Shown in pieces: positions 5,361-52,720 of a stretch of 64,000 nt of DNA (position 1 is the stretch's first letter; each line of letters begins with the position of its first letter). Where the stretch lies: NCBI RefSeq assembly GCF_021117405.1, contig NZ_CP088251.1, forward strand, positions 124,001-188,000. The letters are read 5' to 3'. A model generated the notes under the pieces. It had not been told where the DNA came from. It did no database searches and saw only the letters and a program-made list of their open reading frames with translations. This DNA comes from Frateuria edaphi (GTDB lineage Bacteria; Pseudomonadota; Gammaproteobacteria; Xanthomonadales; Rhodanobacteraceae). Position numbers and translations under genes: made by a program.

Positions 5361-7406
5361 TCAGTGCGTCGCGCCGGTGGCAGCATCCGGGGCGGCCGAT
5401 GCCATTGCGGGGCAGATCACATCCTTGCGCGGCGCATGGACGTCTGGAAGGTTGTACGGCTGGCCGATCGCCGGCATCCGCGAGGCCAGCGGCAGGGCCT
5501 TACCGGACAGGCGCCAGTCGTAGATCACGGCAAAGGCCATCACGCGGGCCACGTAGTCGCGGGTCTCATGGTAGGGAATGGTCGCCACGAACAGGTCCGG
5601 CGGCAAGCTGCCGCGTTCGCCCAGCCACTGGTCGACCTTGTTGGGACCGGCGTTGTAGGCGGCGCTGGCCAGCCACGGCGCGCCGTTGAAACGCGCGGCC
5701 ATCTGCGCCAGGTAACGTGTGCCGAGCATGATGTTGACGGCCGGGTCGTACAGCGACTCGCCGCCGCCCCAGGCCAGCCCGTTCTTCCTGGCGACCTGCG
5801 CCGCGGTGGCCGGCACGAGCTGCATCAGGCCGCGCGCGTCGGCGCCCGAGTGCGCGTCGCTCATCCAGGCACTTTCGGCGCGGGCGATCGCGTAGGCCCA
5901 CGACGGGTCGATGCCGGCCTGCTGCGCTTGTGGCACCACGCCGTCCTGGCTGGCCAGCGGGAAGCGTTGGTCGTAGTAACGCAGGGCGTCGCCGCTGGAA
6001 TAGGTGAACACGGCGCGGTCATACCAGCCGCGTTCGTAAGCCAGCCGCGCGGCGACCCGCAGCGTGGTGGCATCGGCGTCGGCGAGCGCGCGCGACCACT
6101 CGCGCCGCGCCAGCTGCGGCAGGTCCACGGCGAACAGTTCGAAGGCCCGTTGCAGGCCGGGCCTGGCCAGCAGGGCCTGCTCGCGCTGCCCGTCGTCGGG
6201 CGGATCGAGCGGGCAGATCGCGTAGTCGTCCTGCACGCGGTCGGCGGCGAGAAAGCCGTAGTACGTCGGCTCCTGCGCCAGCTTTGCGTAAAGCGCGTTG
6301 GCCTGGTCGGCCTGGCCGCTCGCCGCCAGCGCGCGGGCCCGGAAATAGCGCCACTCGTCCTCGTCCTGCTGGCCAGCGGGCATCGCGTCGATGGCGGCCA
6401 GCACGGCGGGCCAGTCCTGCCGCGCCAGCGCCACGCGAGCGCGCCATTCGCGGCTGGTGTCGGTCTGGACGTCGGCGGGAAGGCTGGCCAGGCGGACCAG
6501 CGCGTGCTCGTCGAAGTCGGTGGCGTGGAACAGCGCCAGCGCGTAGAGCACGCCACCGCGCTGGGTGGGGGTGAAGCTGAAGCGCGGCGCGAGGCGCTGC
6601 CAGCCGGCATCGGCGGCGTCGGTGTCGCGGCGGGCCAGACGCTTCAGCGCCAGCGCGGCAGCCTGGCGGTGGCGCGGCGTGTCGGGCCAGTTCAGCGCAT
6701 CGGCGACGGCGGCGGCGGGGTCGCGCAGCGCCTGGGCCAGGCGCGCGGCGGCCTTTCCTTCGTCGCCCGACAGCCAGGCCGCCAGCGCGGCGACGGTACC
6801 GCCCTGGCCGGCGTCGAGCGCGCGGTCGAGGCGCGTCCACAGGCGTGCGTCGGTGAGCAGGCCGCCATCGTGCGCGGCGTCTAGCACCGGGTCGCAGGCG
6901 TTGGGCAGGCTGGGCTTGCTCCACAGCGCGGCGAGGTCGCGTTCGAAGTCCAGCGTGCCGCCCAGCGCCAGCTTTGCCTGCAGCGCATCGCAGGTCAGCG
7001 TGTCGCCGAGGCCGGGCTGGTACAGCGCCAGGAAATCATCCCAGTGCTGCGCGCGCGCCTGGCTGCGCAGCCACGCGCGGCGCAGGTCGGCGGCCGGCAG
7101 CAGGTCGGGGTAGCGATCGAGGAAGCCGGCGACGGTGGCACGGTCGAGCGTGTCCACATCATGTTCCAGCGCCGCTTCCTCCAGATAGGGGTAAAGCGGG
7201 TAATCGGTCAGTCCCTTGGCCCAGCTGCGCCAGCCATCGCCACCCTGTTGCGCCACGGCCCAGGCCTGCCGGAAGGCGATGCGCTGCTCGGCCAGCGAGG
7301 GCGTGGCATGCGCCGTCGCCGCGAGGAGACACCAGGCGGTCAGGGCGAACAGGAGGTACGACAAGGGGCGCCGCGCGCGCGCGGCCAGGGAGGCGTTCGG
7401 GATCAT
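5361..7406 (-). CDS. slt: Soluble lytic murein transglycosylase (Slt70 family)
   Basis: 681 residues. The signal peptide ends near residue 34 (TAHA). A long alpha-helical superhelix region follows, then an SLT catalytic domain starting near residue 496. The catalytic glutamate is E511 in ARAESAW. Downstream are [10 protein letters not shown] and [15 protein letters not shown], both standard for GH23 transglycosylases. The enzyme cleaves peptidoglycan in the periplasm with formation of 1,6-anhydromuramic acid. The start at 7406 fits the signal peptide. An in-frame ATG at 7451 would add 15 residues before the Arg-rich n-region. A TACACT hexamer lies only seven bases upstream of the chosen ATG with no Shine-Dalgarno between, so the mRNA may be leaderless. 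Followed directly by cca, an unusual partner. Confidence 0.93.
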
Positions 7407-7513: not shown

Positions 7514-9100
7514 ATGGCCGTAGCTTCTGCGTCCCGCTCCCGCCCGCACTGGCCCGTGTGGGTCGCGCTCGCGCTGGCGGCCCTGGCCGGCGTGATCGGC
7601 TGGTGGTGGATGGGGCGCCCGGTGGCGCTGCCGGATGCGCCGTCCTCGCGCATCGCCTGCGTGTCGTATGCGCCGTATCGCCGGCCGGGCGAGACACCCT
7701 ACGACCCGGCCACCTTCATCACCCCCGAGCGCATCGACGCCGACCTGCGCGCGCTGTCGCAACGCTTCGACTGCGTGCGTACCTACTCGCAGGGCCAAGG
7801 CCTGGCGGCGGTGCCGTCGATTGCCCGGCGCTACGGCATGCAGGTGCTGATGGGCATCTGGCTGGGCCGCGACCCGACCGCCAACGCGCAGGAAATCGCC
7901 AAGGGCATCGCCACGGCCAACGCCAATGCCGATGTGCTGCGCGGGGTCATCGTCGGCAACGAAGTGCTGCTGCGCGGCGAGCTCGCGCCGGAAACACTGG
8001 CCGGCTACGTGCGACAGGTGCGCGCCGCGGTCCCGGCGTCGGTGCCGGTGACCTATGCCGACGTGTGGGAGTTCTGGTTGCGCTACCCGCGGATGGCCGA
8101 GGCGGTCGACTACCTGACCATCCATATCCTGCCGTACTGGGAAGACGAGCCGGTGCCGCCCGAGCATGCCGTGCGCCACGTGGCGCAGGTCTACGCGCAG
8201 ATGCAGCGCGCGTTTCCCGGCAAACGGGTGATGATCGGCGAGACCGGCTGGCCCAGCGCGGGTCGCCCGCGCCGCGCGGCCCGCGCCACGCTGGTCAACG
8301 AGGCGCGCTACCTGCGCGAGTTCCTCGGCTACGCGGCGAAGGTGCACATGCCCTACAACGTGATCGAGGCGTTCGACCAGCCGTGGAAGCGCGTGCAGGA
8401 AGGCACCGTCGGCGGCTACTGGGGCATCTTCGACGTGGATGCACGGCCGAAGTTCGCGATGACCGGGCCGGTGGTGGAGGAGCCGCGCTGGTGGTGGGGC
8501 TGGATCGCCGGGGCGCTCGGGGCGCTGCTGTTCGGCTTGGCCGGCGGGATGCGCTCGTGGCGCGGTGCCGGCGGCCTGGTGCTGGCCGGTTTCGCCAGTG
8601 GCGCCGCGCTGGCGTGGCAGGGTCGGCAGATGGTCTACGCCTGCCGCGACCTGCTCGAATCGGGCGTATCCGTCGCCGCCTGCGTGGCGGCACTGGCGAC
8701 GACGCTCTGGCTCGCGCGTGGGCTGGCGCGTCCTCTGAGCGGCCGGGGGCCAGGCTCGGCACCACCGGCGTGGCTATCGCTGGGCTGGCTGTTCGCCCTG
8801 GCCTGGTACGACCTGCTGCTGGTGTTCGACGGCCGCTACCGCGACTTCCCGCTCGGCCTGTTCGCGCTGCCCTGCGTGGGCTACGCGCTCGTTGCCTGGC
8901 TCGATCCGCAGCCGGCGCGCCCGCCGCTGGAGCACCGCCTGCTGGCCGGGCTGCTGCCGGCGCTCGGGACGCTGGTGGTGGTGCAAGAGGTAGGACTGAA
9001 CCTCACGGCCTGGCTATGGCTGGGGCTGAACCTTGCGCTCGCCATCCCGGTACTGGCTGCGTGGGGGCAGCGCATCCGCCTGCACCCGCAGCAGCCGTAG
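7514..9100 (+). CDS. Membrane-anchored glycoside hydrolase family 17 protein
   Basis: 528 residues. A membrane anchor (about 14-33) is followed by a GH17-like domain (about 50-330). The acid/base glutamate is E150 in VGNEV and the nucleophile E243 in IGETGWPS, the two diagnostic GH17 motifs. The remaining 190 residues are very hydrophobic, with about six membrane segments. This architecture resembles proteobacterial proteins annotated as exo-beta-1,3-glucanase or beta-1,6-glucan synthase, which act as transglycosylases on beta-glucans. Here the most plausible role is modification of a periplasmic or exported glucan. An upstream in-frame ATG at 7445 would add residues that do not look like a signal, so 7514 is preferred. 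It is divergent from slt and overlaps the next gene tail to tail. Confidence 0.82.
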   Translation: MAVASASRSRPHWPVWVALALAALAGVIGWWWMGRPVALPDAPSSRIACVSYAPYRRPGETPYDPATFITPERIDADLRALSQRFDCVRTYSQGQGLAAVPSIARRYGMQVLMGIWLGRDPTANAQEIAKGIATANANADVLRGVIVGNEVLLRGELAPETLAGYVRQVRAAVPASVPVTYADVWEFWLRYPRMAEAVDYLTIHILPYWEDEPVPPEHAVRHVAQVYAQMQRAFPGKRVMIGETGWPSAGRPRRAARATLVNEARYLREFLGYAAKVHMPYNVIEAFDQPWKRVQEGTVGGYWGIFDVDARPKFAMTGPVVEEPRWWWGWIAGALGALLFGLAGGMRSWRGAGGLVLAGFASGAALAWQGRQMVYACRDLLESGVSVAACVAALATTLWLARGLARPLSGRGPGSAPPAWLSLGWLFALAWYDLLLVFDGRYRDFPLGLFALPCVGYALVAWLDPQPARPPLEHRLLAGLLPALGTLVVVQEVGLNLTAWLWLGLNLALAIPVLAAWGQRIRLHPQQP

Positions 9101-9427
9101 CGCCCCGACCAGCAGCGCGAACGCGCCAGCCTCGAAGCAATACAGGACCAGCGCGGCCACGCCCAGCGCAGCCGCCAGCCACGCGGCGAGCGGGTGGCGC
9201 CAGAACAGCGCGATGAAGGCGGCGGTGAGCGCCGCATAGCCGTAGGCGTAGCCCAGGAAGCCGAGCACGGCCCACTCCCGCCAGGCGCACCAGCCCGGAC
9301 CACCGCCGGCGGTGCAGAGGTTGGCCACCGCGGGCGGCTCGATCACGCCGTAGCGCAATGCCGAGGCGGCGAGCGCCACCAGCGCGAGGGTGAACCAGGG
9401 CACGACTAGGCGCAGCGTGCGGGTCAT
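9014..9427 (-). CDS. Small integral membrane protein of unknown function
   Basis: 137 residues with three to four hydrophobic stretches (about 5-28, 45-75 and 78-112) and no domain I can name. The N-terminus reads as an uncleaved membrane helix. Its ATG overlaps the stop of the upstream endonuclease-family gene as ATGA, good evidence that it is a real coupled gene. Its 3' end runs 87 bases into the end of the convergent GH17 gene, so both proteins share that DNA on opposite strands. The overlapping part encodes a polar tail after the last membrane segment. No function is proposed. Confidence 0.6.
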   Translation of the reverse strand: MTRTLRLVVPWFTLALVALAASALRYGVIEPPAVANLCTAGGGPGWCAWREWAVLGFLGYAYGYAALTAAFIALFWRHPLAAWLAAALGVAALVLYCFEAGAFALLVGALRLLRVQADALPPRSQYRDGERKVQPQP

Positions 9428-10239
9428 CGGCGCAACCGTTGGGCGCGTGGCGCCAGTGGGGCGGGCAGGCGGATTTCCGCCGCCAGCGGCAGGTGATCGG
9501 AGAACGCCTGGGGCAGCGCCCACACGCGTTCCAGGGTGAGCGACTCGGAGAGCAGGATGTGATCCAGCGCCCGCCGCGGCTTCCAGCTCGGGAAGGTGGG
9601 CGTCGGTTGCTCCGGCGGCTGCAGGCTGCAGCGCGCGAACAGGTGGCGCATCTCGGCGCTATGCGCCTCGGTGTTGAGATCGCCCATCAGCACCACGTTG
9701 GGATAGCCGTGCAGCACCTCGGCGATGAAGGCGAGCTGGCGCGCGCGCGCCTGCGCCGATAGCGAGAGGTGGGCGATCATCACGGTCAGCGCCTGCGCCT
9801 CGTCGCCGTAGCGCACCAGCAAGGCGCCGCGCCCGGGAATGCGGCTGGGCAGCGGGTAGTCGTAGACGCTGTGCGGCTCCATCCGGCTGATCAGGCCATT
9901 GGCCGAATGCGCCAGCCGCGCCATCGGCCGGTTCGGCTGGTGGCTCCAGAACGGCAGGCCCGAGGCCTCGGCCAGGTAGCGGGTCTGGTTGAGAAAGCCC
10001 GAGCGCAGGCTGCCGGCATCGGCCTCCTGTAGGCCGATCACGTCGAATTGCGGCAGTACCTCGGCCAATCGGTCGAGGTTGTCCAGCTTGCTGCGGCCGG
10101 GCAACACCGCGTTGATGCTGCGGGTCACGTATTCGTGATAACGCTGCACGCTGGCGCCGGCCAGGATGTTGCAGCTGAGCAGCCGCAGGCGGCGCTCGGC
10201 GGGAGCCTTGTCAGGGGAAGCTTTTGCGGCGCTGGTCAT
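9424..10239 (-). CDS. Endonuclease/exonuclease/phosphatase family protein
   Basis: 271 residues of the DNase I-like EEP fold. Motifs in order: LRLLSCNIL (about 18-26), FDVIGLQEAD with the metal-binding glutamate (about 65-74), MIAHLSLSAQARARQL (about 153-168), VVLMGDLNTE (about 178-187) and FSDHLPLAAEI (about 246-256). There is no signal peptide, so it is probably cytoplasmic. Members of this family hydrolyse phosphodiesters in nucleic acids, sphingomyelin or inositol phosphates; nothing here fixes the substrate. It is coupled by ATGA overlap to the small membrane protein gene downstream. Homologues in this order are often simply called EEP-family hydrolases. Confidence 0.85.
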   Translation of the reverse strand: MTSAAKASPDKAPAERRLRLLSCNILAGASVQRYHEYVTRSINAVLPGRSKLDNLDRLAEVLPQFDVIGLQEADAGSLRSGFLNQTRYLAEASGLPFWSHQPNRPMARLAHSANGLISRMEPHSVYDYPLPSRIPGRGALLVRYGDEAQALTVMIAHLSLSAQARARQLAFIAEVLHGYPNVVLMGDLNTEAHSAEMRHLFARCSLQPPEQPTPTFPSWKPRRALDHILLSESLTLERVWALPQAFSDHLPLAAEIRLPAPLAPRAQRLRR

Positions 10240-43562: not shown

Positions 43563-45353
43563 ATGAGCGAAACCGTCGGCGATTTCATCCTGCAGCGCCT
43601 CACCGACTGGGGCATCCGGCGCATCTTCGGTTTCCCGGGTGATGGCATCAACGGGATCATGGGCGCGATGGGCCGCGCGGCGGAGCGTTTCGACTACGTG
43701 CGCGTGCGCCACGAGGAAATGGCCGCCTTCATGGCCGGCGCGCATGCCAAGTTCACCGGCGAGATCGGCGTGTGCATGGCCACCTCCGGCCCCGGCGCGA
43801 TCCATCTGCTGAATGGTCTGTACGACGCACAGATGGACCACATGCCGGTGCTGGCGATCGTCGGCCAGTCCGCGCGCAGCGCGATCGGCAGCGACTACCA
43901 GCAGGAAGTCGACCTGCAGGTGCTGTTCCAGGACGTCTGCGGCTACGTCGAAACCGTGCTGTCGCCGGTGCAGGTGCGCCAGGTGATGGATCGGGCGATC
44001 CGCATCGCCGCCGCGCGGCGAACGGTCACCTGCGTGATCGTGCCCAACGACATCCAGGAACTGCCGGCGGTCAGGCATCCGCCGCGCAAGCACAACGACG
44101 TCTACACCGGCGTGGGCTACGCCAACCCTTGCCCCGTGCCGGGCGACGAAGACATCAAGCGCGCCGCCGACATCCTCAACGACGGCCGCAAGGTGGCGAT
44201 CCTGATCGGCGCCGGCGCCATGCATGCGGGCGACCAGGTGGTCGCGGTGGCCAACCGGCTCGATGCCGGCATCGCCAAGGCACTGCTCGGCAAGGCCGCG
44301 CTGCCGGACGACCTGCCCTTCGTCACCGGCTCGATCGGCCTGCTCGGCACCAAGCCGAGCTGGGACATGATGAACGATTGCGACACCCTGCTGATGGTCG
44401 GCACCACCTTCCCGTACTCCGAGTTCCTGCCCGAGGAAGGCCAGGCACGCGCGGTGCAGATCGACCTCGACCCGCGCAACGTGTCGATGCGCTATCCGAC
44501 CGAAGTGAACCTCATCGGCGACAGCGCGCAGGTGCTCGAACGCCTGCTGCCGCTGCTGCGCCCGAAGGAAAACCCGGACTGGCGCGAGCGCATCGAACTC
44601 AACGTGCGCAAGTGGTGGCGCGACCTCGAAGCCAAGGCGATGCAGCCGGCCAACCCGATCAATCCGCAGCGCATCTTCTGGGAGCTCTCGCCGCGCCTGC
44701 CCGACAACACCATCATCTGCGGCGACTGCGGCTCGCACACCAACTGGTACGCGCGCGACGTGAAGATCCGCAAGGGCATGATGGCCTCGCTCTCGGGCAA
44801 GCTGGCCACCATGGGCAGCGGCATGCCCTATGCGATCGCGGCCAAGTTCGCCTACCCGGAACGCCCGGTGCTGGCGATCGTCGGCGACGGCGCCATGCAA
44901 ATGAACGGCAACGCCGAGCTGATCACCGTCAAGCAGTACTGGAAGAAGTGGTCCAACCCCTGCTTCGTGGTGATGGTGCTGCACAACGACGACCTCAACC
45001 AGGTGACCTGGGAGCAGCGAGCGCTGGGTGGTGACCCGAAGTTCTCCGAATCGCAGGACGTGGAGGAGTTCTCCTACGCCAAATACGCCGAGCTGCTCGG
45101 CTTCAAGGCGATCCGCGTCGACCGGCCCGAGGACCTGGCCACCGCGTGGGAGCAGGCCTTCGCCGCCGACCGGCCGGTGCTGCTGGACATCATCAGCGAC
45201 CCGGACGTGCCGCCGCTGCCGCCGCACATCACCTGGAAGCAGGCCAGGGATTACATGACCGCACTGGCCAAGGGCGATCCGGACGAGGGCGGCATCATCA
45301 AGCAGAGCCTGCGCCAGGTGCTCGCCGGCATCCTGCCGAACAATTCCCGATGA
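43563..45353 (+). CDS. Thiamine-diphosphate-dependent enzyme, pyruvate oxidase/acetolactate synthase family
   Basis: 596 residues with the three ThDP domains: N-terminal PYR domain with activating glutamate E51 (VRHEEMAAF), middle domain with IGAGAMHAG, and C-terminal PP domain with GDGAMQMNGNAEL (441-453) binding Mg-ThDP. Most like proteins annotated as thiamine pyrophosphate-requiring enzymes or pyruvate oxidase/dehydrogenase (PoxB type). There is no C-terminal membrane-binding helix as in E. coli PoxB. It would decarboxylate a 2-keto acid or join carbonyls. First gene of a six-gene co-directional cluster; its stop overlaps the next start as ATGA. A good Shine-Dalgarno (AAGGAG) precedes the ATG. 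Confidence 0.85.
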   Translation: MSETVGDFILQRLTDWGIRRIFGFPGDGINGIMGAMGRAAERFDYVRVRHEEMAAFMAGAHAKFTGEIGVCMATSGPGAIHLLNGLYDAQMDHMPVLAIVGQSARSAIGSDYQQEVDLQVLFQDVCGYVETVLSPVQVRQVMDRAIRIAAARRTVTCVIVPNDIQELPAVRHPPRKHNDVYTGVGYANPCPVPGDEDIKRAADILNDGRKVAILIGAGAMHAGDQVVAVANRLDAGIAKALLGKAALPDDLPFVTGSIGLLGTKPSWDMMNDCDTLLMVGTTFPYSEFLPEEGQARAVQIDLDPRNVSMRYPTEVNLIGDSAQVLERLLPLLRPKENPDWRERIELNVRKWWRDLEAKAMQPANPINPQRIFWELSPRLPDNTIICGDCGSHTNWYARDVKIRKGMMASLSGKLATMGSGMPYAIAAKFAYPERPVLAIVGDGAMQMNGNAELITVKQYWKKWSNPCFVVMVLHNDDLNQVTWEQRALGGDPKFSESQDVEEFSYAKYAELLGFKAIRVDRPEDLATAWEQAFAADRPVLLDIISDPDVPPLPPHITWKQARDYMTALAKGDPDEGGIIKQSLRQVLAGILPNNSR

Positions 45354-46498
45354 ACGACGCACGGCCCGCGCCTGTCGCGACCGTTCCCGCAACGCGCCGC
45401 ATCGCCCGCATCGAAGTGGATGCCTATCGCATTCCCACCGATGCGCCGGAGGCCGACGGCACCATCGCCTGGGATGCGACCACCATGGTGCTGGCGCGGG
45501 TGTCGGCCGGTGGGCATACCGGCCTTGGCTGGACCTACGCCCATGCCGCGGCGGGCGCGGTGATCGCCGACCCGCTGCGCGACGTGCTGCTGAACCAGGA
45601 CATCGACGACATTCCCCGCGCGTGGGCCTCGATGAACCGCGCCTTGCGCAACATCGGGCGGCCCGGCGTGGGCCTGATGGCGATCGCCGCCGTCGACGTG
45701 GCGCTGTGGGACCTGAAGGCACGCCTGCACGGCACTTCGGTGGTGCGCCTGATGGGCCGCGCGCGCGAGGCGGTGCCGGTGTACGGCAGCGGCGGTTTCA
45801 CCTCCTATTCGATCGGCCGCCTGCAGGAACAGCTCGCCGGGTGGGCCGGTGAGGGCATGACGCGGGTCAAGATGAAGGTCGGCACGCACCCGGATGACGA
45901 TCCGTCGCGCGTGCACGCCGCGCGCGAGGCGATCGGCCCGGCGGTCGAACTGATGGTCGATGGCAACGGCGCCTACGAACGCAAACAGGCGCTGGCGCTG
46001 GCTGGTGGTTACGCCCGCGACAGCGTGGGCTGGTTCGAGGAGCCAGTGTCCTCAGACGATCTCGAAGGGTTGCGCCTGCTGCGCGACCGCGCGCCAGCCG
46101 GCATGGATATCGCCGCCGGCGAGTACGGCTGGGATGCCTGGTACTTCCGCCGCATGCTTCGGGCCGGCGCGGTCGACGTGCTGCAGGTCGACGCTACCCG
46201 CTGCGGCGGCTTCACCGGCTTCCTGCAAGCGGCCGCGCTGGCGCGCGGCTTCGGCATCCCGGTCTCGGCGCACTGCGCGCCACACCTGCACGCGCACGTG
46301 TGCAGCGCAATCGGGCACCTCAAGCACGTGGAGTATTTCCACGACCACGCACGCATCGAGTCGATGTTCTTCGACGGCCTGCCGGCGCTGCGCGATGGTG
46401 CGCTGGTGGTCTATGCGGACGCGCCCGGGCTGGGCCTGACGTTCAAGCAGCGCGACGCGGAGCGTTACCGCATCGCTCCGGAAGGACTCCTGACATGA
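45350..46498 (+). CDS. Enolase superfamily protein, mandelate racemase subgroup
   Basis: 382 residues. The full mandelate-racemase catalytic set is visible with constant offset from the type enzyme: K174-M-K176, metal ligands D204, E231 and E258, and the H308/D281 dyad (SAHCAPH and VDATRCGG). This set occurs in mandelate racemase and many acid-sugar dehydratases. It should abstract the alpha-proton of a carboxylate and either epimerise it or remove water. In this cluster a sugar-acid dehydratase is the more economical guess, because the 2-keto product could feed a ThDP enzyme; that is inference. Coupled to the upstream gene by ATGA. A 160-bp gap with a REP-like repeat follows. Confidence 0.88.
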   Translation: MNDARPAPVATVPATRRIARIEVDAYRIPTDAPEADGTIAWDATTMVLARVSAGGHTGLGWTYAHAAAGAVIADPLRDVLLNQDIDDIPRAWASMNRALRNIGRPGVGLMAIAAVDVALWDLKARLHGTSVVRLMGRAREAVPVYGSGGFTSYSIGRLQEQLAGWAGEGMTRVKMKVGTHPDDDPSRVHAAREAIGPAVELMVDGNGAYERKQALALAGGYARDSVGWFEEPVSSDDLEGLRLLRDRAPAGMDIAAGEYGWDAWYFRRMLRAGAVDVLQVDATRCGGFTGFLQAAALARGFGIPVSAHCAPHLHAHVCSAIGHLKHVEYFHDHARIESMFFDGLPALRDGALVVYADAPGLGLTFKQRDAERYRIAPEGLLT

Positions 46499-46547
46499 CC
46501 GCCAGAACACGCCATGGCCAACAAGGCCGCTCCCTCGGCCGGAATCC

Positions 46548-46621
46548 CTGCAGGAGCGCACCCGGTGCGCGACCGCCCGAAGCGGCATGCCCACGGGCGC
46601 GCACAGGCTGCGCTCCGACAG
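46548..46621. repeat. GGAGCGCAC/GTGCGC-type inverted repeat inside the six-gene cluster
   Basis: Left arm CTGCAGGAGCGCACCCGGTG and onward, right arm ending GCACAGGCTGCGCTCCGACAG; arms pair with few mismatches across a short GC-rich centre. Same family as the copies at 15599 and 60999. It fills most of the gap between the enolase-type and FAD/Fe-S genes and may tune downstream expression. Confidence 0.65.
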
Positions 46622-46658
46622 GAGAGTCAGCGGGTTACTTGCGGGGAGGGGCGACATC

Positions 46659-49600
46659 ATGACCAAGCAGCGGGAGCACGGCTCCGTCCCTTCGTTCCCC
46701 CGCAAACCCGACGCTTCCGGCGCCGAGGCGGCCGCATCGTCCACCGATGGCCGCGGCCGCCAGGACAGCCACCGCGATGCCGCGGTGCTGCCGCTGGCGC
46801 CGCCGCGCGTGCGCCACTCGCACAGCAACCGCTTGGCCTTTTCCAGTGCCGCCGCCGCCGTGCTGGCGCAGGACCTGGCCGCGGCGCTGGAAGGCGAGGT
46901 CTGCTTCGACGACGGCAGCCGTGCGCTCTACGCCACCGACGGCTCGATCTATCGCCAGGTGCCGATCGGCGTGGTCAAGCCGCGCCACGCCCGCGACGTG
47001 ATCGAAACCCTGCGCATCTGCCGCGAACACGACGCGCCGGTGCTCTCGCGCGGCGGCGGCACCAGCCTGGCCGGCCAGTGCTGCAACACCGCGGTGGTGA
47101 TGGATTTCTCCTACCACCTCAACCAGATCGTCGCGATCGATCCGGAGCAACGTCGTGCGCGCATCGAACCGGGCTGCGTGCTGGACGACCTGCGCGACCA
47201 GGCGGAGAAGCACCACCTCACCTTCGGCCCGGATCCGTCGACACACGCGCACAACACGCTGGGCGGCATGATCGGCAACAACTCCTGCGGCGTGCACTCG
47301 GTGATGGCCGGGCGCACTGCCGACAACGTGCATGCGCTGGAGATCGTCACCTACGACGGCCTGCGCATGCGCGTCGGGCCGACCAGCGAAGAGGAGCTGG
47401 AACAGATCATCCGCGAGGGCGGCCGGCGCGGCGAGATCTACGCCGGCCTCAAATCCATCCGTGACCGCTACGCCGACCTGGTCCGCGCGCGCTATCCGAA
47501 GATCCCGCGCCGCGTCTCCGGCTACAACCTGGACGAATTGCTGCCCGAAAACGGCTTCAACGTGGCGCGGGCGCTGGTCGGCACGGAAGGCACCTGCGTG
47601 ACCATCCTGGAGGCCGAGGTGCGGCTGGTGCCCAGCCCGCCGGTGCGCTCGCTGCTGGTGCTCGGGTACCCGGACGTTTTCGAGGCCGGCGACCACGTGC
47701 CGCAGATCCTCGCCTTCGGCCCGACCGGCCTGGAAGGCATCGACGACGCGCTGATCGCCGACATGAAGCGCAAGGACATGCACCCGAAGGACCGCGCCCT
47801 GCTGCCGCCGGGCGGCGGCTGGCTGATGGTCGAGTTCGGCGGCGACTCCAAGGACGAAGCCGACGGCAAGGCCCGCAAGCTGATGCAGGCGCTCAAGGCC
47901 GAGGACCACCCGCCGAGCATGAAGCTGTTCGACGACCCGGCCGAGGAAGGCATGCTGTGGACGATCCGCGAGTCGGGCCTTGGCGCCACCGCGCGCGTTC
48001 CCGGCCAGCCGGACGGCCATCCCGGCTGGGAGGACGCCGCCGTCCCGCCGGACAAGGTCGGTCCCTACCTGCGCGACTTCCGCAAGCTGCTCGCCAAGTA
48101 CACCTACACCTGTGCGCTGTACGGCCATTTCGGCGACGGCTGCATCCACTGCCGCATCGCGTTCGACCTGTCCACGCCCGAGGCGGTGGCGCAGTGGCGC
48201 GCCTTCATGGACGAGGCCTCCGACCTGGTGTTGTCCTACGGCGGCTCGCTCTCCGGCGAGCATGGCGATGGCCAGGTGCGCGCCTCGTTCCTGCCCAAGA
48301 TGTTCGGCGACGAGCTGGTCCAGGCCTTCGGCGAGTTCAAGGCGCTGTGGGACCCGCGCGGGCGCATGAACCCCGGCAAGGTGGTCGATCCCAACCCGAT
48401 GGACGCCGACCTGCGCGACGGTCCGGGCTACCAGCCGCCCAAGCTCAAGACCGCATTCGCCTTTCCGGCCGACGGCATGAGCTTCGCGCAGGCGGCGCGC
48501 CGCTGCGTCGGCGTGGGCAACTGCCGCAACAAGCACAAGAACGTGATGTGCCCGAGCTACCGCGCCACCCACGAGGAGAAGTGGAGCACGCGCGGGCGCT
48601 CGCACCTGTTGTTCGAGATGCTCGAAGGCGACCCGTTGAAAGACGGCTGGCGCAGCGAGGCGGTGCGTGACGCGCTGGACATGTGCCTGGCCTGCAAGGG
48701 CTGCAAGAGCGACTGCCCGGTCAACGTGGACATGGCTACCTACAAGGCCGAGTTCATGCATCACCACTACGAAGGCCGCCTGCGCCCGCGCGCGGCCTAT
48801 GCGATGGGGCGCATCTTCGACATCGCCCGCGTCGCGTCGCACGTGCCGTGGCTGGCCAACGCGATCCTGCAGACGCCCGGACTCTCGCACCTGGCCAAGG
48901 CGATCGGCGGCATCGCCCAGCAGCGCACGATGCCGCGGTTCGCCAGCGAGACCTTCCGCGACTGGTTCGCCGCGCGCGAAAAATCCCGCATGCGCGGCCC
49001 GGAAGTGCTGCTGTGGCCGGACACGTTCAACAACTACCTGCACCCTGATCCACTCAAGGACGCGGTCGGCGTGCTGGAGGCGGCCGGCTACCGCGTGGTG
49101 GTACCGCAGGCGACGCTGTGCTGCGGGCGTCCGCTGTATGCCGAGGGCATGCTGGACAAGGCACGCGCGCAGCTTTCGGACATCCTCGATGCGCTCTCGC
49201 CGCACATCGACCGCAGCGTGCCGGTGGTCGGGCTCGAGCCCTCCTGCGTCGCGGCGTTCCGCGACGAGCTGCCCAATCTGTTCCCGGGCGACGAACGCGC
49301 GCACTGGCTCTCGCGCAACACCTTCCTCTTCAGCGAGTACCTCGACCGTGTCGGCTACGCGCCGCCGCAGCTCAAGCGCAAGGCGCTGGTGCACGCGCAC
49401 TGCCACCACCACGCGGTCATCGGCACCGATGCGGAAAAGCGGCTGCTCGCCAAGGCAGGGTTGGACTTCGAACTGCTCGATGCGGGCTGTTGCGGCATGG
49501 CCGGCTCGTTCGGCTTCGACGCGAAGAAAGTCGACGTCTCCCTCGCGATCGGCGAGCTGGAACTGCTGCCGGCCATCCGCGCGGCCGATCCGGACACGCT

Positions 49601-49811
49601 GATCATCACCAACGGCTTTTCCTGCCGCCAGCAGATCGGGCAATGCACCGGCCGCACCGCGCTGGACGTGTCGCAGGTGCTGGCGATGGCGCTGGCGCAG
49701 GGCACGTCCAACCTCGACCCGATTCCCCGCCGCGAGCGCGAAGCGCCGCTGCCCTCGGCGCGGCCGGAGCCCGGACGCGGGGGCGAGGGGTGGGGAGGGC
49801 ACGCAAGGTGA
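46659..49811 (+). CDS. FAD-binding and Fe-S 2-hydroxyacid dehydrogenase fusion (D-lactate dehydrogenase/GlcD-GlcF type)
   Basis: 1050 residues from the ATG at 46659 (GGGGAGG upstream). Domains in order: variable N-terminal 65 residues; FAD-binding PCMH domain with VLSRGGGTSLAGQCC and TLGGMIGNNSCGVHS; FAD-oxidase C domain with GHFGDGCIHCRI and GSLSGEHGDGQVRA; ferredoxin-like domain with a first cluster (CVGVGNC...MCPS) and a second (CLACKGCKSDCPVN); two cysteine-rich CCG modules (CCGRPLYAEG and CCGMAGSFGF) with HAHCHHH between. This is the fused GlcD+GlcF layout of membrane-associated D-lactate or D-2-hydroxyglutarate dehydrogenases (YdiJ/Dld class), which pass electrons to quinone or a carrier. 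Here it is the oxidoreductase of the cluster. Exact substrate unknown. Confidence 0.88.
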   Translation: MTKQREHGSVPSFPRKPDASGAEAAASSTDGRGRQDSHRDAAVLPLAPPRVRHSHSNRLAFSSAAAAVLAQDLAAALEGEVCFDDGSRALYATDGSIYRQVPIGVVKPRHARDVIETLRICREHDAPVLSRGGGTSLAGQCCNTAVVMDFSYHLNQIVAIDPEQRRARIEPGCVLDDLRDQAEKHHLTFGPDPSTHAHNTLGGMIGNNSCGVHSVMAGRTADNVHALEIVTYDGLRMRVGPTSEEELEQIIREGGRRGEIYAGLKSIRDRYADLVRARYPKIPRRVSGYNLDELLPENGFNVARALVGTEGTCVTILEAEVRLVPSPPVRSLLVLGYPDVFEAGDHVPQILAFGPTGLEGIDDALIADMKRKDMHPKDRALLPPGGGWLMVEFGGDSKDEADGKARKLMQALKAEDHPPSMKLFDDPAEEGMLWTIRESGLGATARVPGQPDGHPGWEDAAVPPDKVGPYLRDFRKLLAKYTYTCALYGHFGDGCIHCRIAFDLSTPEAVAQWRAFMDEASDLVLSYGGSLSGEHGDGQVRASFLPKMFGDELVQAFGEFKALWDPRGRMNPGKVVDPNPMDADLRDGPGYQPPKLKTAFAFPADGMSFAQAARRCVGVGNCRNKHKNVMCPSYRATHEEKWSTRGRSHLLFEMLEGDPLKDGWRSEAVRDALDMCLACKGCKSDCPVNVDMATYKAEFMHHHYEGRLRPRAAYAMGRIFDIARVASHVPWLANAILQTPGLSHLAKAIGGIAQQRTMPRFASETFRDWFAAREKSRMRGPEVLLWPDTFNNYLHPDPLKDAVGVLEAAGYRVVVPQATLCCGRPLYAEGMLDKARAQLSDILDALSPHIDRSVPVVGLEPSCVAAFRDELPNLFPGDERAHWLSRNTFLFSEYLDRVGYAPPQLKRKALVHAHCHHHAVIGTDAEKRLLAKAGLDFELLDAGCCGMAGSFGFDAKKVDVSLAIGELELLPAIRAADPDTLIITNGFSCRQQIGQCTGRTALDVSQVLAMALAQGTSNLDPIPRREREAPLPSARPEPGRGGEGWGGHAR

Positions 49812-49875
49812 GGATGGACCCGATGCCCCTCGATCCTGCTCCACCTGGCCGGCCACCACGCAGGAGCGCCAATCC

Positions 49876-50322
49876 ATGCATTACCAACTGATCCACCAGG
49901 GCGACACGCGCACCTGGGCCGTCGTGCTCGAGACCGGCGACGAGGCCAACGCCTGCCTGCTCGCCTTTGCCAGGGCGCAGCAGCTGTCGGCCGCGCACCT
50001 GACCGCCATCGGCGCCTTCCAGCGCGCGGTGCTGGGCTATTTCGACTGGGACGCCAGGGACTACAAGCGCAACCCCGTCGACGAACAGGTGGAAGTGGTC
50101 TCGCTGATCGGCGACGTGGCGCTCAAGGACGACGAACCCCGGCTGCACATGCACGCGGTGCTGGGCCGGTCCGACGCCCGCGCGCTGGGCGGCCACCTGC
50201 TGGAGGGCCACGTGCGGCCCACGCTGGAAGTGATCGTCACCGAGGCGCCCGCGCACCTGCGCCGCCGCCACGACCCGGTCTCGGGTCTTGCATTGATCCA
50301 CCTCGACAAGGAGCTGCCATGA
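49876..50322 (+). CDS. PPC/DUF296 domain protein
   Basis: 148 residues. The single domain matches PPC (plant and prokaryote conserved, DUF296): a hydrophobic start, FARAQQLSAAHLTAIGAFQR, then LHMHAVLGRSDARALGGHL, in which the HxH and GGHL pattern marks the family's metal-coordinating histidines. In plants PPC is fused to AT-hooks; bacterial stand-alone forms are trimeric proteins of unknown role, suspected to bind small ligands or metal. CAGGAG lies nine bases before the ATG. Its stop overlaps the next gene as ATGA, so it is translationally coupled to the ASRT homologue, suggesting joint function. Confidence 0.88.
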   Translation: MHYQLIHQGDTRTWAVVLETGDEANACLLAFARAQQLSAAHLTAIGAFQRAVLGYFDWDARDYKRNPVDEQVEVVSLIGDVALKDDEPRLHMHAVLGRSDARALGGHLLEGHVRPTLEVIVTEAPAHLRRRHDPVSGLALIHLDKELP

Positions 50323-50699
50323 CCACGCCAGAACCGATCGGCCAGCGCCGCTGGGCCATCGCCGAGGGCTACATCCCGCCCGGCGGCACGCATGCGGACG
50401 ATCCGCGTTTCCTGAGCCACGAAACCGCCTGCCTGCTCAACACCAACGCGCAGGACGCGCAGGTGACCCTCACCATCTACTTCAAGGATCGCGACCCGGC
50501 CGGTCCCTACCGCGTCACCGTGCCGGCGCGGCGCACGCTGCACCTGCGCTTCAACGACCTGACCGATCCCGAGCCGATCCCGCGCGACACCGATTATTCG
50601 AGCGTGATCGAGTCGGACGTGCCGATCGTGGTGCAGCACACGCGGCTGGATTCGCGCCAGGCCGCGCTCGCGCTGCTTTCCACCATCGCCTACAGCTGA
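50319..50699 (+). CDS. Anabaena sensory rhodopsin transducer (ASRT) family protein
   Basis: 126 residues. Near-full-length match to what I remember of the Anabaena sensory rhodopsin transducer: WAIAEGYIPPGG, FLSHETACLLNTN, TIYFKDRDPAGPYRVTVPAR, RFNDLTDPEPIPRDTDY and IVVQHTRLDSRQAALALLST. The soluble transducer is a tetrameric beta-sandwich. Comparative work has placed the family (PF07100) beside sugar-metabolism genes and proposed small-molecule binding. No rhodopsin or retinal gene is present here; neighbours are a PPC protein (ATGA overlap upstream) and an SDR 27 bp downstream. A sensor or ligand-carrier role for a sugar-type metabolite is inferred. No cysteine, signal peptide or membrane segment. 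Confidence 0.9.
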   Translation: MTTPEPIGQRRWAIAEGYIPPGGTHADDPRFLSHETACLLNTNAQDAQVTLTIYFKDRDPAGPYRVTVPARRTLHLRFNDLTDPEPIPRDTDYSSVIESDVPIVVQHTRLDSRQAALALLSTIAYS

Positions 50700-50726
50700 T
50701 CCTGCAGGCACCGAAGGAGCCGCACC

Positions 50727-51734
50727 ATGAAGAAACCCGAAGTCGTCGTCATCACCGGCGCCTCCGCCGGCGTCGGCCGCGCCACCGCCCATCGCTTCGC
50801 CCGCGACGGCGCGCGCATCGCCCTGATCGCGCGCGGCAGCGATGGCCTGGAGGTCGCCGCCGAGGAAGTGCGGCGGTTGGGTGGCGAGGCGTTGCCGATC
50901 CCGCTGGACGTGTCCGACGCCGACGCGGTCGAGGCCGCGGCCGAGCGCGTCGAGCGGGAGCTCGGCCCGATCGACATCTGGATCAACGATGCCATGGCGA
51001 CCATCTTCGCGCCGGTCCACCAGATCAGCCCGGCGGAGTTCCGCCGGGCCACCGAGGTCACTTACCTGGGCACCGTGTACGGCACCATGGCGGCGCTCAA
51101 GCGCATGCGCGAGCGCGGCCGCGGCACCATCGTGCAGGTGGGGTCGGCGCTGGCGTACCGGGCGATACCGCTGCAGGCGCCCTACTGCGGCGCCAAGTTC
51201 GCCATCCGCGGCTTCACCGACGCGCTGCGCGTGGAGCTGATGCACGAGCGGAGCGACATCCACATCACGATGGTGCAGCTGTCCGCCTTCAACACGCCGC
51301 AGTTCCAATGGGGCCGCACCAAGCTGCCGCGCCGGCCGCAGCCGGTGCCGCCGATCTTCCAGCCGGAGGTCGCGGCCAGGGGCATCCATTGGGCCGCGCA
51401 TCACCGGCGGCGCGAGCTCAACGTGGGTTTTCCCGCGGTCAAGGCGATCCTCGGCAACAAGCTGTTCCCGAAGCTGGGCGATCGCCGCCTGGTCAAGCTC
51501 GGCTACGCCGGCCAGATGGGCCAGCTGCCGCTGCCGGAAGACCGGCCGGACAACCTTTACGAAGCGGTGCGCGAGGATTACGGCACGCACGGCCGCTTCG
51601 ATGCCCGTTCCAAGGCGTACAGCCTGCAGTTGTGGGCCACGACGCACCGCGGCCTGCTCGCCGCCGGCGTGCTGGCGGCCGGGGCGCTGTTGTGGGCGGG
51701 AAGCCGTGGCCCGCGCCGGGCGGAGCACGTGTAG
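50727..51734 (+). CDS. SDR family oxidoreductase with C-terminal membrane anchor
   Basis: 335 residues. Classical SDR core: TGASAGVGRATA, LDVSDADAVEAA, VGSALAYRAIPLQAPYCGAK with the Ser/Tyr/Lys set. The normally invariant NNAG is altered to NDAM (WINDAMATIF). After the catalytic domain come about 100 residues and a hydrophobic C-terminal segment (about 305-325, LLAAGVLAAGALLWAG) ending in RRAEHV, which may anchor the enzyme to the inner membrane. Longer SDRs of this kind (about 330 aa) are common in soil proteobacteria and have no assigned substrate. Last gene of the six-gene cluster; a bidirectional hairpin follows. Confidence 0.88.
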   Translation: MKKPEVVVITGASAGVGRATAHRFARDGARIALIARGSDGLEVAAEEVRRLGGEALPIPLDVSDADAVEAAAERVERELGPIDIWINDAMATIFAPVHQISPAEFRRATEVTYLGTVYGTMAALKRMRERGRGTIVQVGSALAYRAIPLQAPYCGAKFAIRGFTDALRVELMHERSDIHITMVQLSAFNTPQFQWGRTKLPRRPQPVPPIFQPEVAARGIHWAAHHRRRELNVGFPAVKAILGNKLFPKLGDRRLVKLGYAGQMGQLPLPEDRPDNLYEAVREDYGTHGRFDARSKAYSLQLWATTHRGLLAAGVLAAGALLWAGSRGPRRAEHV

Positions 51735-51796: not shown

Positions 51797-52720
51797 TCAG
51801 TAGCGCGGCACCGAGGAATCGATCTCGCGTGACCACGCATCCATGCCGCCCTCGACGTTGAACACGTCGGTGAACCCGTGCGCCGCGAAGCGCTCGGCCA
51901 CGCCGCGGCTGGAGTTGCCGTGGTGGCAGATGAAGGCGATCGCCGTGTCCTTCGGCAGCGCGGCCAAGGCGTCGTAGCCCTCCTCCTCCAGCACGCGCGC
52001 CTGCGCCAGCGACGGGGCCAAGGCGCGGCCAGCGGCCGGGCGCACGTCCACCAGCAGCACGCTGCTGTCGGCCAGGCGTGCCTTCAGTTCCTGCACGCTG
52101 AGCGACTTGATCTCCTGCGCGCCGGGGAACTTCAGGCTGAGGCCTTCGCCCTGCACGGTGGAGACCCAGTCGATCACGATGCCCTTGGCGCGCTGCGCGC
52201 TGCCCGGGTCGAAATGCACCTCGATGCCGTTGGCGGTCACCACGATGTCGTGGTCGCCGGCCGGCGCCAGCTGGAAGCCGGCGCTGTGGTCGGGGCCGAT
52301 CTCCAGGTGCAGCGCCAGTCCCTGTGCGTTGGCGATGCCGTTGCGGATGGCCTCGGCCGCCTTGTCGGTGATCGTGATCTCCGGCGGCGTGCGGTCCGGC
52401 GGGGTGGCGCCGAACAGCGAATGCAGTTCGCCGCTGGCGTACATCTGGCGGATGATGTCGGCGCCGCCGACCAGCTCGCCCTCGACGTACAGCTGCGGGA
52501 TCGTCGGCCAGTCCCCGAACACCTTGATGCCCTCGCGGATTTCCGGATCGTCCAGCACGTTGACCGTGTGGTATTCGGGCAACAGCTCGTTGAGCGTGTT
52601 GGTCGCGGCCGCGGAGAAACCGCACATCGGCTGGCGACGGTCGCCCTTCATGAACAGCACCACGCGGTGGTCCTTGAGCAGGGTTTCGATGCGTTCGCGG
52701 GTGGCAGGGTCGAGGGACAT
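51797..52720 (-). CDS. Monothiol glutaredoxin (CGFS) fused to A-type-like and rhodanese domains
   Basis: 307 residues, three domains. (1) Grx4-type monothiol glutaredoxin (1-105) with CGFS at 33-36 and WPTIPQLYV. (2) A HesB/IscA-like domain (about 110-200) beginning PPEITITDKAAEAIRN; it lacks all three cysteines that bind Fe-S in IscA. (3) A rhodanese domain (about 205-307) with active-site C265 in CHHGNSSR. CGFS glutaredoxins carry [2Fe-2S] clusters. The fusion suggests a platform for cluster handling or persulfide delivery. The cysteine-free middle domain probably serves as a dimer or docking module. The fusion as such is known in Xanthomonadales; the middle-domain loss deserves checking. 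Upstream gap of 75 bp to the SGNH gene. Confidence 0.9.
   Translation of the reverse strand: MSLDPATRERIETLLKDHRVVLFMKGDRRQPMCGFSAAATNTLNELLPEYHTVNVLDDPEIREGIKVFGDWPTIPQLYVEGELVGGADIIRQMYASGELHSLFGATPPDRTPPEITITDKAAEAIRNGIANAQGLALHLEIGPDHSAGFQLAPAGDHDIVVTANGIEVHFDPGSAQRAKGIVIDWVSTVQGEGLSLKFPGAQEIKSLSVQELKARLADSSVLLVDVRPAAGRALAPSLAQARVLEEEGYDALAALPKDTAIAFICHHGNSSRGVAERFAAHGFTDVFNVEGGMDAWSREIDSSVPRY

Follow-up and report, generated by a model that had tools for sequence, protein, structure and literature searches.

A conserved six-gene cluster in Frateuria edaphi that joins ThDP-dependent, enolase and ASRT proteins, and its candidate role in sugar-acid oxidation

Results

The window analyzed here is a 64,000-nucleotide stretch of the Frateuria edaphi genome, which is a single contig of 3.77 Mb, and it carries at positions 43563-51734 six plus-strand genes that an original prediction, made from the letters alone, had described as one cluster. 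Gene calls and Pfam domains agree with the identities given there. The first gene (43563-45353, 596 aa) encodes a thiamine diphosphate (ThDP) enzyme of the PRK08273 family (NF006129), which is related to PoxB, and the second (45350-46498, 382 aa) encodes a mandelate racemase (MR)-type enolase that is a probable acid-sugar dehydratase. These are followed by an FAD/Fe-S dehydrogenase (46659-49811, 1050 aa) composed of a GlcD-like FAD half and a half with Fe-S and CCG parts, by an accessory PPC protein (49876-50322, 148 aa; PCC, PF03479), by a protein of the Anabaena sensory rhodopsin transducer (ASRT) family (50319-50699, 126 aa) that carries the SHExxCxxN signature and is close to Anabaena ASRT, and by a short-chain dehydrogenase/reductase (SDR; 50727-51734, 335 aa) of the PRK07109 subfamily (NF005495) whose C-terminal part includes a hydrophobic segment.

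This cluster is a real, conserved module and more than a chance arrangement, because its six-gene synteny is kept in five other genomes of the genus and the module recurs in other phyla. ASRT is present in all six Frateuria genomes examined, and the synteny holds in each of the other five. Thus, the genes are not scattered in relatives; scattering had been named beforehand as the outcome that would speak against a functional unit. All six also occur together in two loci that are Chloroflexota by name. We collected the best 80 of 433 ASRT relatives, the closest named ones being Frateuria, and scored partner genes at these loci by tblastn, with SDR matches below 45% identity excluded; these counts rest on tblastn because a simple gene caller found the ASRT gene in 55 of 81 sources. 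A ThDP gene is present at 27 loci, the enolase at 27, the FAD/Fe-S gene at 21, the SDR at 32, and PPC at 8 by a stricter rule or 10 by a looser one (a PPC-like fragment at L083 is among those dropped), and these values are minima because several loci end at contig edges. The complete set is found at 6 of the 80 loci, namely four from Frateuria (L036-L039) and the two from Chloroflexota (L107 and L109), with the SDR of L107 lying about 2.4 kb upstream of ASRT, and partial sets are found at ASRT loci of other phyla. The tightest pair is ThDP and enolase, which lie on the same strand at most 300 bp apart at 20 of the 23 ASRT loci with both genes. By the same measure, the next tightest are enolase with FAD/Fe-S (14/19) and ASRT with SDR (18/32).

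Co-occurrence was also examined in samples of the class (n=274), family (n=147) and phylum (n=398), each including the window's genome. The ASRT domain (PF07100) is rare and patchy, with 3 strong matches in the class sample (two weak ones among the five genomes matched, G032 and G177, were set aside), 13 in the family sample and 5 in the phylum sample. In the family, all 12 genomes with the enolase, 6 of them from one genus, also have both ASRT and the ThDP gene, as raw counts from related genomes. The ThDP gene occurs in 23 family genomes, 12 of which are ASRT-positive, and the FAD/Fe-S gene in 7, every one ASRT-positive. PPC is found in 9 family genomes, 7 of them among the 13 that are ASRT-positive, and six of these seven are the Frateuria genus itself. 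Together with its presence at so few ASRT loci, this distribution makes the suggested ASRT/PPC sensing pair a weak proposal. In the phylum sample, enolase and ASRT are each found in 5 genomes and are shared by 3 (G000, G278 and G770), with G502 and G705 having ASRT only and G727 and G748 having the enolase only. The latter two weaken any rule that the enolase always accompanies ASRT. The ThDP gene nevertheless adjoins the enolase in G727 (on opposite strands), G748 and G770.

Both ATGA overlaps that had been noted are present, between the ThDP and enolase genes at 45350-45353 and between PPC and ASRT at 50319-50322. The accompanying description of short gaps elsewhere suits the 64 bp between FAD/Fe-S and PPC and the 27 bp between ASRT and SDR, but is generous for the 160 bp between the enolase and FAD/Fe-S genes. 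Part of this largest gap is filled by an imperfect palindrome resembling repetitive extragenic palindromic (REP) elements (46547-46622, no strand), segments of which are repeated elsewhere in the genome. REP-like palindromes also occupy this junction in L036 (around 5950-6050) and L037 (around 6230-6320), and all three differ in sequence, whereas the remaining two named Frateuria loci, L038 and L039, have an ATGA overlap at the junction. For these reasons the 160-bp gap looks secondary and the tight layout is probably ancestral. An earlier in-frame start for the FAD/Fe-S gene at 46587 was dropped, since relatives start at the ATG equivalent to 46659 and the earlier position falls between the palindrome arms. 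Scanning for promoters gave no match, and the number of terminator-like sites did not exceed that in shuffled sequence. Downstream of the cluster, a minus-strand gene (51797-52720) that is kept in Frateuria encodes a three-domain protein with glutaredoxin, Fe-S biosynthesis and rhodanese parts.

The ThDP protein has three TPP_enzyme domains and passes the model for PRK08273 thiamine pyrophosphate-requiring proteins (NF006129) with 1018.7 bits against a cut-off of 724. It stays below the cut-offs of two curated pyruvate oxidase models (493/742 for NF006377 and 390.5/792 for NF006591), and that name was therefore rejected. Its closest solved structure is E. coli pyruvate oxidase PoxB (3ey9, matched over 566 residues), with which it shares the catalytic glutamate (E51 in the window protein). 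We aligned PoxB with 39 ThDP homologues, comprising 25 from ASRT loci and 14 that are unlinked to an enolase; only matches spanning 80% or more of the protein's length were used, so that 25 rather than 27 ASRT loci are included. PoxB Glu50 is kept in 39/39 of these. Phe112 and Phe465 of PoxB, which we take to line the pyruvate site, correspond to Gln113 and Gln480 in the window, and are glutamine in 39/39 and 33/39 homologues, respectively. Nearby, PoxB G464 is replaced by Asn (37/39), A467 by Thr (38/39) and M468 by Trp (39/39). The two glutamines suggest that the substrate is a polar 2-oxo acid rather than plain pyruvate. Among the open-access literature matches listed, no paper names Phe112 or Phe465.

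The enolase has MR_MLE_N and MR_MLE_C domains and bears the features of the MR subgroup, namely the KxK lysines, three acidic metal ligands and a His-Asp pair. K174, K176, D204, E230, E258 and D281 are each invariant in 27 homologues, and among homologues with a residue at the site H308 is kept in 25/26 and E328 in 25/25. The original prediction had credited this protein with the complete mandelate racemase residue set, and the near-invariant positions are what we take that catalytic set to be. The fold and catalytic positions are also common to L-talarate/galactarate dehydratase (2pp0), but the corresponding model gives 198.7 bits against a cut-off of 500, and the name was rejected on this ground. 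The closest solved structure is 3cyj (421.6 bits), an uncharacterized MR-type enolase presumably from Rubrobacter, for which we found no function in the open-access literature, where the one paper that names it lists it as a putative member. A possible direct lead is an MR/MLE protein of Rubrobacter xylanophilus that is reported to dehydrate 'd-glucuronate' and not d-xylonate (PMC6458216). This protein may be that of 3cyj, that of 2qq6, an entry with an identical molecule name, or neither.

The domain content proposed for the large fusion agrees with Pfam matches to FAD_binding_4, FAD-oxidase_C, Fer4_8 and CCG, and its cluster cysteines are kept in 19/19 homologues. The protein falls below the YdiJ, GlcD, GlpC and GlcF cut-offs. 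YdiJ, a D-2-hydroxyglutarate dehydrogenase, likewise combines an FAD domain with Fe-S and CCG parts in a single chain, but the window protein reaches 517.7 bits against the YdiJ cut-off of 1350, and this name was also rejected. The SDR has an adh_short domain and passes the cut-off of its subfamily model. By a simple hydropathy threshold, 27 of 34 cluster members of at least 280 aa, the window's own included, have the C-terminal hydrophobic segment. The PPC protein is related to the solved structures 2h6l and 2dt4.

The ASRT protein passes PF07100 with 181.4 bits against a cut-off of 25, and matches Anabaena sensory rhodopsin transducer (2ii7) over its full length with 182.4 bits. Its version of the family signature SHExxCxxN (PMC2739507) reads SHETACLLN, and among 80 homologues the S, H, E and N are kept in 80 and the C in 79. 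A search of the window's genome for a rhodopsin gave no match, and the positive control of that search gave none either; a query of viral contigs with ASRT yielded no relative. Pairs of closely spaced ASRT genes are present at L060 (10001-11992) and L095 (10001-12219), where the second copy is the more divergent, being 41% and 58% identical to the window's ASRT, respectively. The two weakly matching genomes of the class sample have open reading frames of 464 and 511 aa (G032, loci L006 and L009; G177, loci L007 and L008), each with two weak ASRT-like segments, and these are perhaps the multi-domain ASRAH proteins described in 2009.

Neighboring genes were counted in 81 sources (the 80 loci and the window) by clustering the output of a simple gene caller, which yields minimum values. 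Frequent companions are two GH13 groups (18 and 12 sources), GH15 (16), a luciferase-like flavoprotein (12), COX1 (8) and GMC oxidoreductase (7). Pfam matches of single representatives add Gluconate_2-dh3, glucodextranase domain N, a glycogen-debranching N-terminal domain, GH39 with a putative glucoamylase domain, VKOR, cytochrome bd, Rieske and an MFS sugar transporter. We then compiled 133 flanking proteins from 27 loci outside Frateuria, after removal of proteins over 1000 aa and of the GH13, GH15 and luciferase-like clusters. Among the 127 of these that were scanned, those of L042 being left out as near-duplicates of L041, the leading families include GMC (4), COX1 (3), GH15 (3) and the debranching N-domain (3). 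A second type of ASRT neighborhood, seen in Cupriavidus, cyanobacteria and other bacteria, lacks the ThDP and enolase genes and has GH13 enzymes, often alongside a luciferase-like flavoprotein (L099, L102, L103, L104, L106, L044, L051, L053 and L056). Around the 14 unlinked ThDP genes, 11 of which are in genomes with no ASRT match and 3 in ASRT-positive ones, we scanned 101 of 102 neighbors (one very long protein was excluded) and found DUF2383 (5), response regulators (5), Ku (3), LigD (3) and alpha-amylase (3). In one related genus (L118, L119 and L123), the ThDP gene near 8000-9850 is close to Ku and LigD, with neither enolase nor ASRT.

Discussion

The comparison of neighborhoods supports the view that the cluster is a conserved unit of the sugar-acid or 2-oxo/2-hydroxy-acid type. 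More specifically, the chances are about even that it is a module for the respiratory oxidation of a sugar-derived acid. From the observed gene content, synteny and residue conservation, we infer a substrate, an electron acceptor and a sensing step as follows. The enolase would dehydrate a 2,3-dihydroxy sugar acid, with a 2-oxo-3-deoxy acid as the product. The ThDP enzyme would then decarboxylate this polar 2-oxo acid, most likely oxidatively via FAD as PoxB does, with electrons passing to the quinone pool; such electron flow is proposed because of the analogy to PoxB and the respiratory genes nearby. The FAD/Fe-S protein could oxidize a 2-hydroxy acid, either within that step or in one feeding it, and the SDR, probably anchored by its hydrophobic segment, could handle a carbonyl or alcohol intermediate. 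ASRT may bind a sugar or sugar acid and adjust the enzymes or their expression, with PPC in an accessory role. In relatives, the likely sources would be alpha-glucans or trehalose, together with periplasmic sugar oxidation by GMC enzymes. A bolder version is offered tentatively, from sequence comparison, and may well prove wrong: that the ThDP enzyme and enolase constitute an unrecognized respiratory sugar-acid route, in which dehydration yields a 2-oxo-3-deoxy acid that then undergoes quinone-linked oxidative decarboxylation by a relative of pyruvate oxidase with a polar, double-glutamine pocket. Neither phosphorylation nor aldol cleavage would be involved, and ASRT would tune the route as a soluble sensor of sugar acids.

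Several observations weigh against assigning such a role to the cluster. No other cluster gene was found at 38 of the 80 ASRT loci, some of which are at contig ends, and 11 of the 23 family genomes with the ThDP gene match neither ASRT nor the enolase. At the thresholds used, G371 has ASRT with no match to enolase or ThDP, and in G314, G364 and G387 the ThDP gene does not adjoin the enolase. The counts are not independent, because they come from related genomes and from the top 80 among 433 ASRT relatives. The neighboring families, whose counts are raw, are to be taken as leads. The cluster proteins fall below the cut-offs of the nearest characterized models. Moreover, the double-glutamine pocket is equally strong in the 14 unlinked ThDP homologues, and it therefore marks the ThDP family rather than just the cluster; taken alone, it does not connect the substrate with the enolase.

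The role of ASRT is where another explanation fares best. De Souza, Iyer and Aravind predicted a sugar or a related compound as the ligand of ASRT and proposed the protein as a ligand sensor (PMC2739507). However, Anabaena ASRT has been reported to bind and loop DNA and to raise reporter expression (PMC8660804), and the window protein, which is close to it, keeps the Arg and Gln of the three DNA-contacting residues reported for it. It is thus possible, if doubtful, that ASRT is a DNA-binding or looping regulator of the cluster and not, or not only, a sugar sensor on the side of the enzymes. Against this, the third contact, Asn, is Leu in the window (with numbering by motif), the Arg and Gln sit in a generally conserved stretch, and the Anabaena protein has been reported to show weak sequence dependence (PMC8660804).

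The order of the enzymatic steps can also be drawn differently. In a stepwise alpha-oxidation, the FAD/Fe-S enzyme would turn a 2-hydroxy sugar acid into a 2-oxo acid, the ThDP enzyme would shorten it by oxidative decarboxylation, and the enolase would epimerize C2 such that both epimers could enter. The FAD half belongs with D-2-hydroxyacid dehydrogenases, racemization is likewise compatible with the MR-type residues, and the enolase and FAD/Fe-S genes frequently adjoin each other, as noted above. Nevertheless, this scheme seems unlikely, in that 5 of the 12 family genomes with enolase and ThDP have no FAD/Fe-S match, and neither do the loci of G727, G748 and G770. The occurrence of enolase and ThDP without the FAD/Fe-S gene favors a core of dehydration followed by decarboxylation, to which the FAD/Fe-S enzyme would be an added or feeding step.

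Alternatively, the cluster might be a stationary-phase or stress module, in which slow-growing cells use the ThDP enzyme as a PoxB-like respiratory enzyme for a common 2-oxo acid, and the cluster is induced by stress rather than by a sugar acid. Expression of E. coli poxB is strongly dependent on RpoS (PMC2759082), and DUF2383, Ku and LigD are among the neighbors of the unlinked ThDP genes. However, we regard this as decidedly improbable: every Ku or LigD match comes from the single genus mentioned above, none of these genes is among the scanned neighbors in the window, and the ThDP pocket residues are unlike those of PoxB. A loose association of redox genes by linkage, with no shared pathway, would accommodate the variable gene content and order and the many ASRT loci that lack the other genes, but is very improbable given the gene overlaps, the presence of the complete set in the genus and at two loci from Chloroflexota, and the co-occurrence of enolase, ThDP and ASRT across the family.

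If respiratory oxidation of a sugar-derived acid is indeed the function of the cluster, then bacteria could burn sugar acids directly into the respiratory chain in a phosphate-free manner, and the uncharacterized 3cyj enolase family and the PRK08273 ThDP family would both gain a role. ASRT is widespread, has no agreed function and is known mainly through its link to Anabaena rhodopsin. Its association with one small enzyme pair, for which the ThDP pocket allows a specific prediction, would provide a concrete path to the ligand of ASRT. The same pocket prediction and gene pairing make the proposed route readily testable.

The closest known counterparts are the sugar-metabolism neighborhoods of ASRT (ASRAH) proteins described by De Souza, Iyer and Aravind in 2009, for which the main text examined names no finished pathway (PMC2739507). 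These neighborhoods join ASRT with a pyruvate decarboxylase/oxidase, a sugar-acid dehydratase/racemase and a glycolate-oxidase-like FAD oxidoreductase, and all four kinds of gene lie side by side in the window. The lack of a known pathway with this gene set had been read as a sign of novelty, a reading that does not hold for the core combination, which has been in print since that report. No other paper on this cluster was found by title or abstract among the open-access literature matches listed. PPC and SDR, which are both in the window cluster, are not named in the main text examined of the 2009 article. What our analysis adds to those neighborhoods is the recurrence of PPC and SDR as partners, the pairing of enolase and ThDP outside genomes with ASRT, the co-occurrence at the level of the family, and the double-glutamine pocket.

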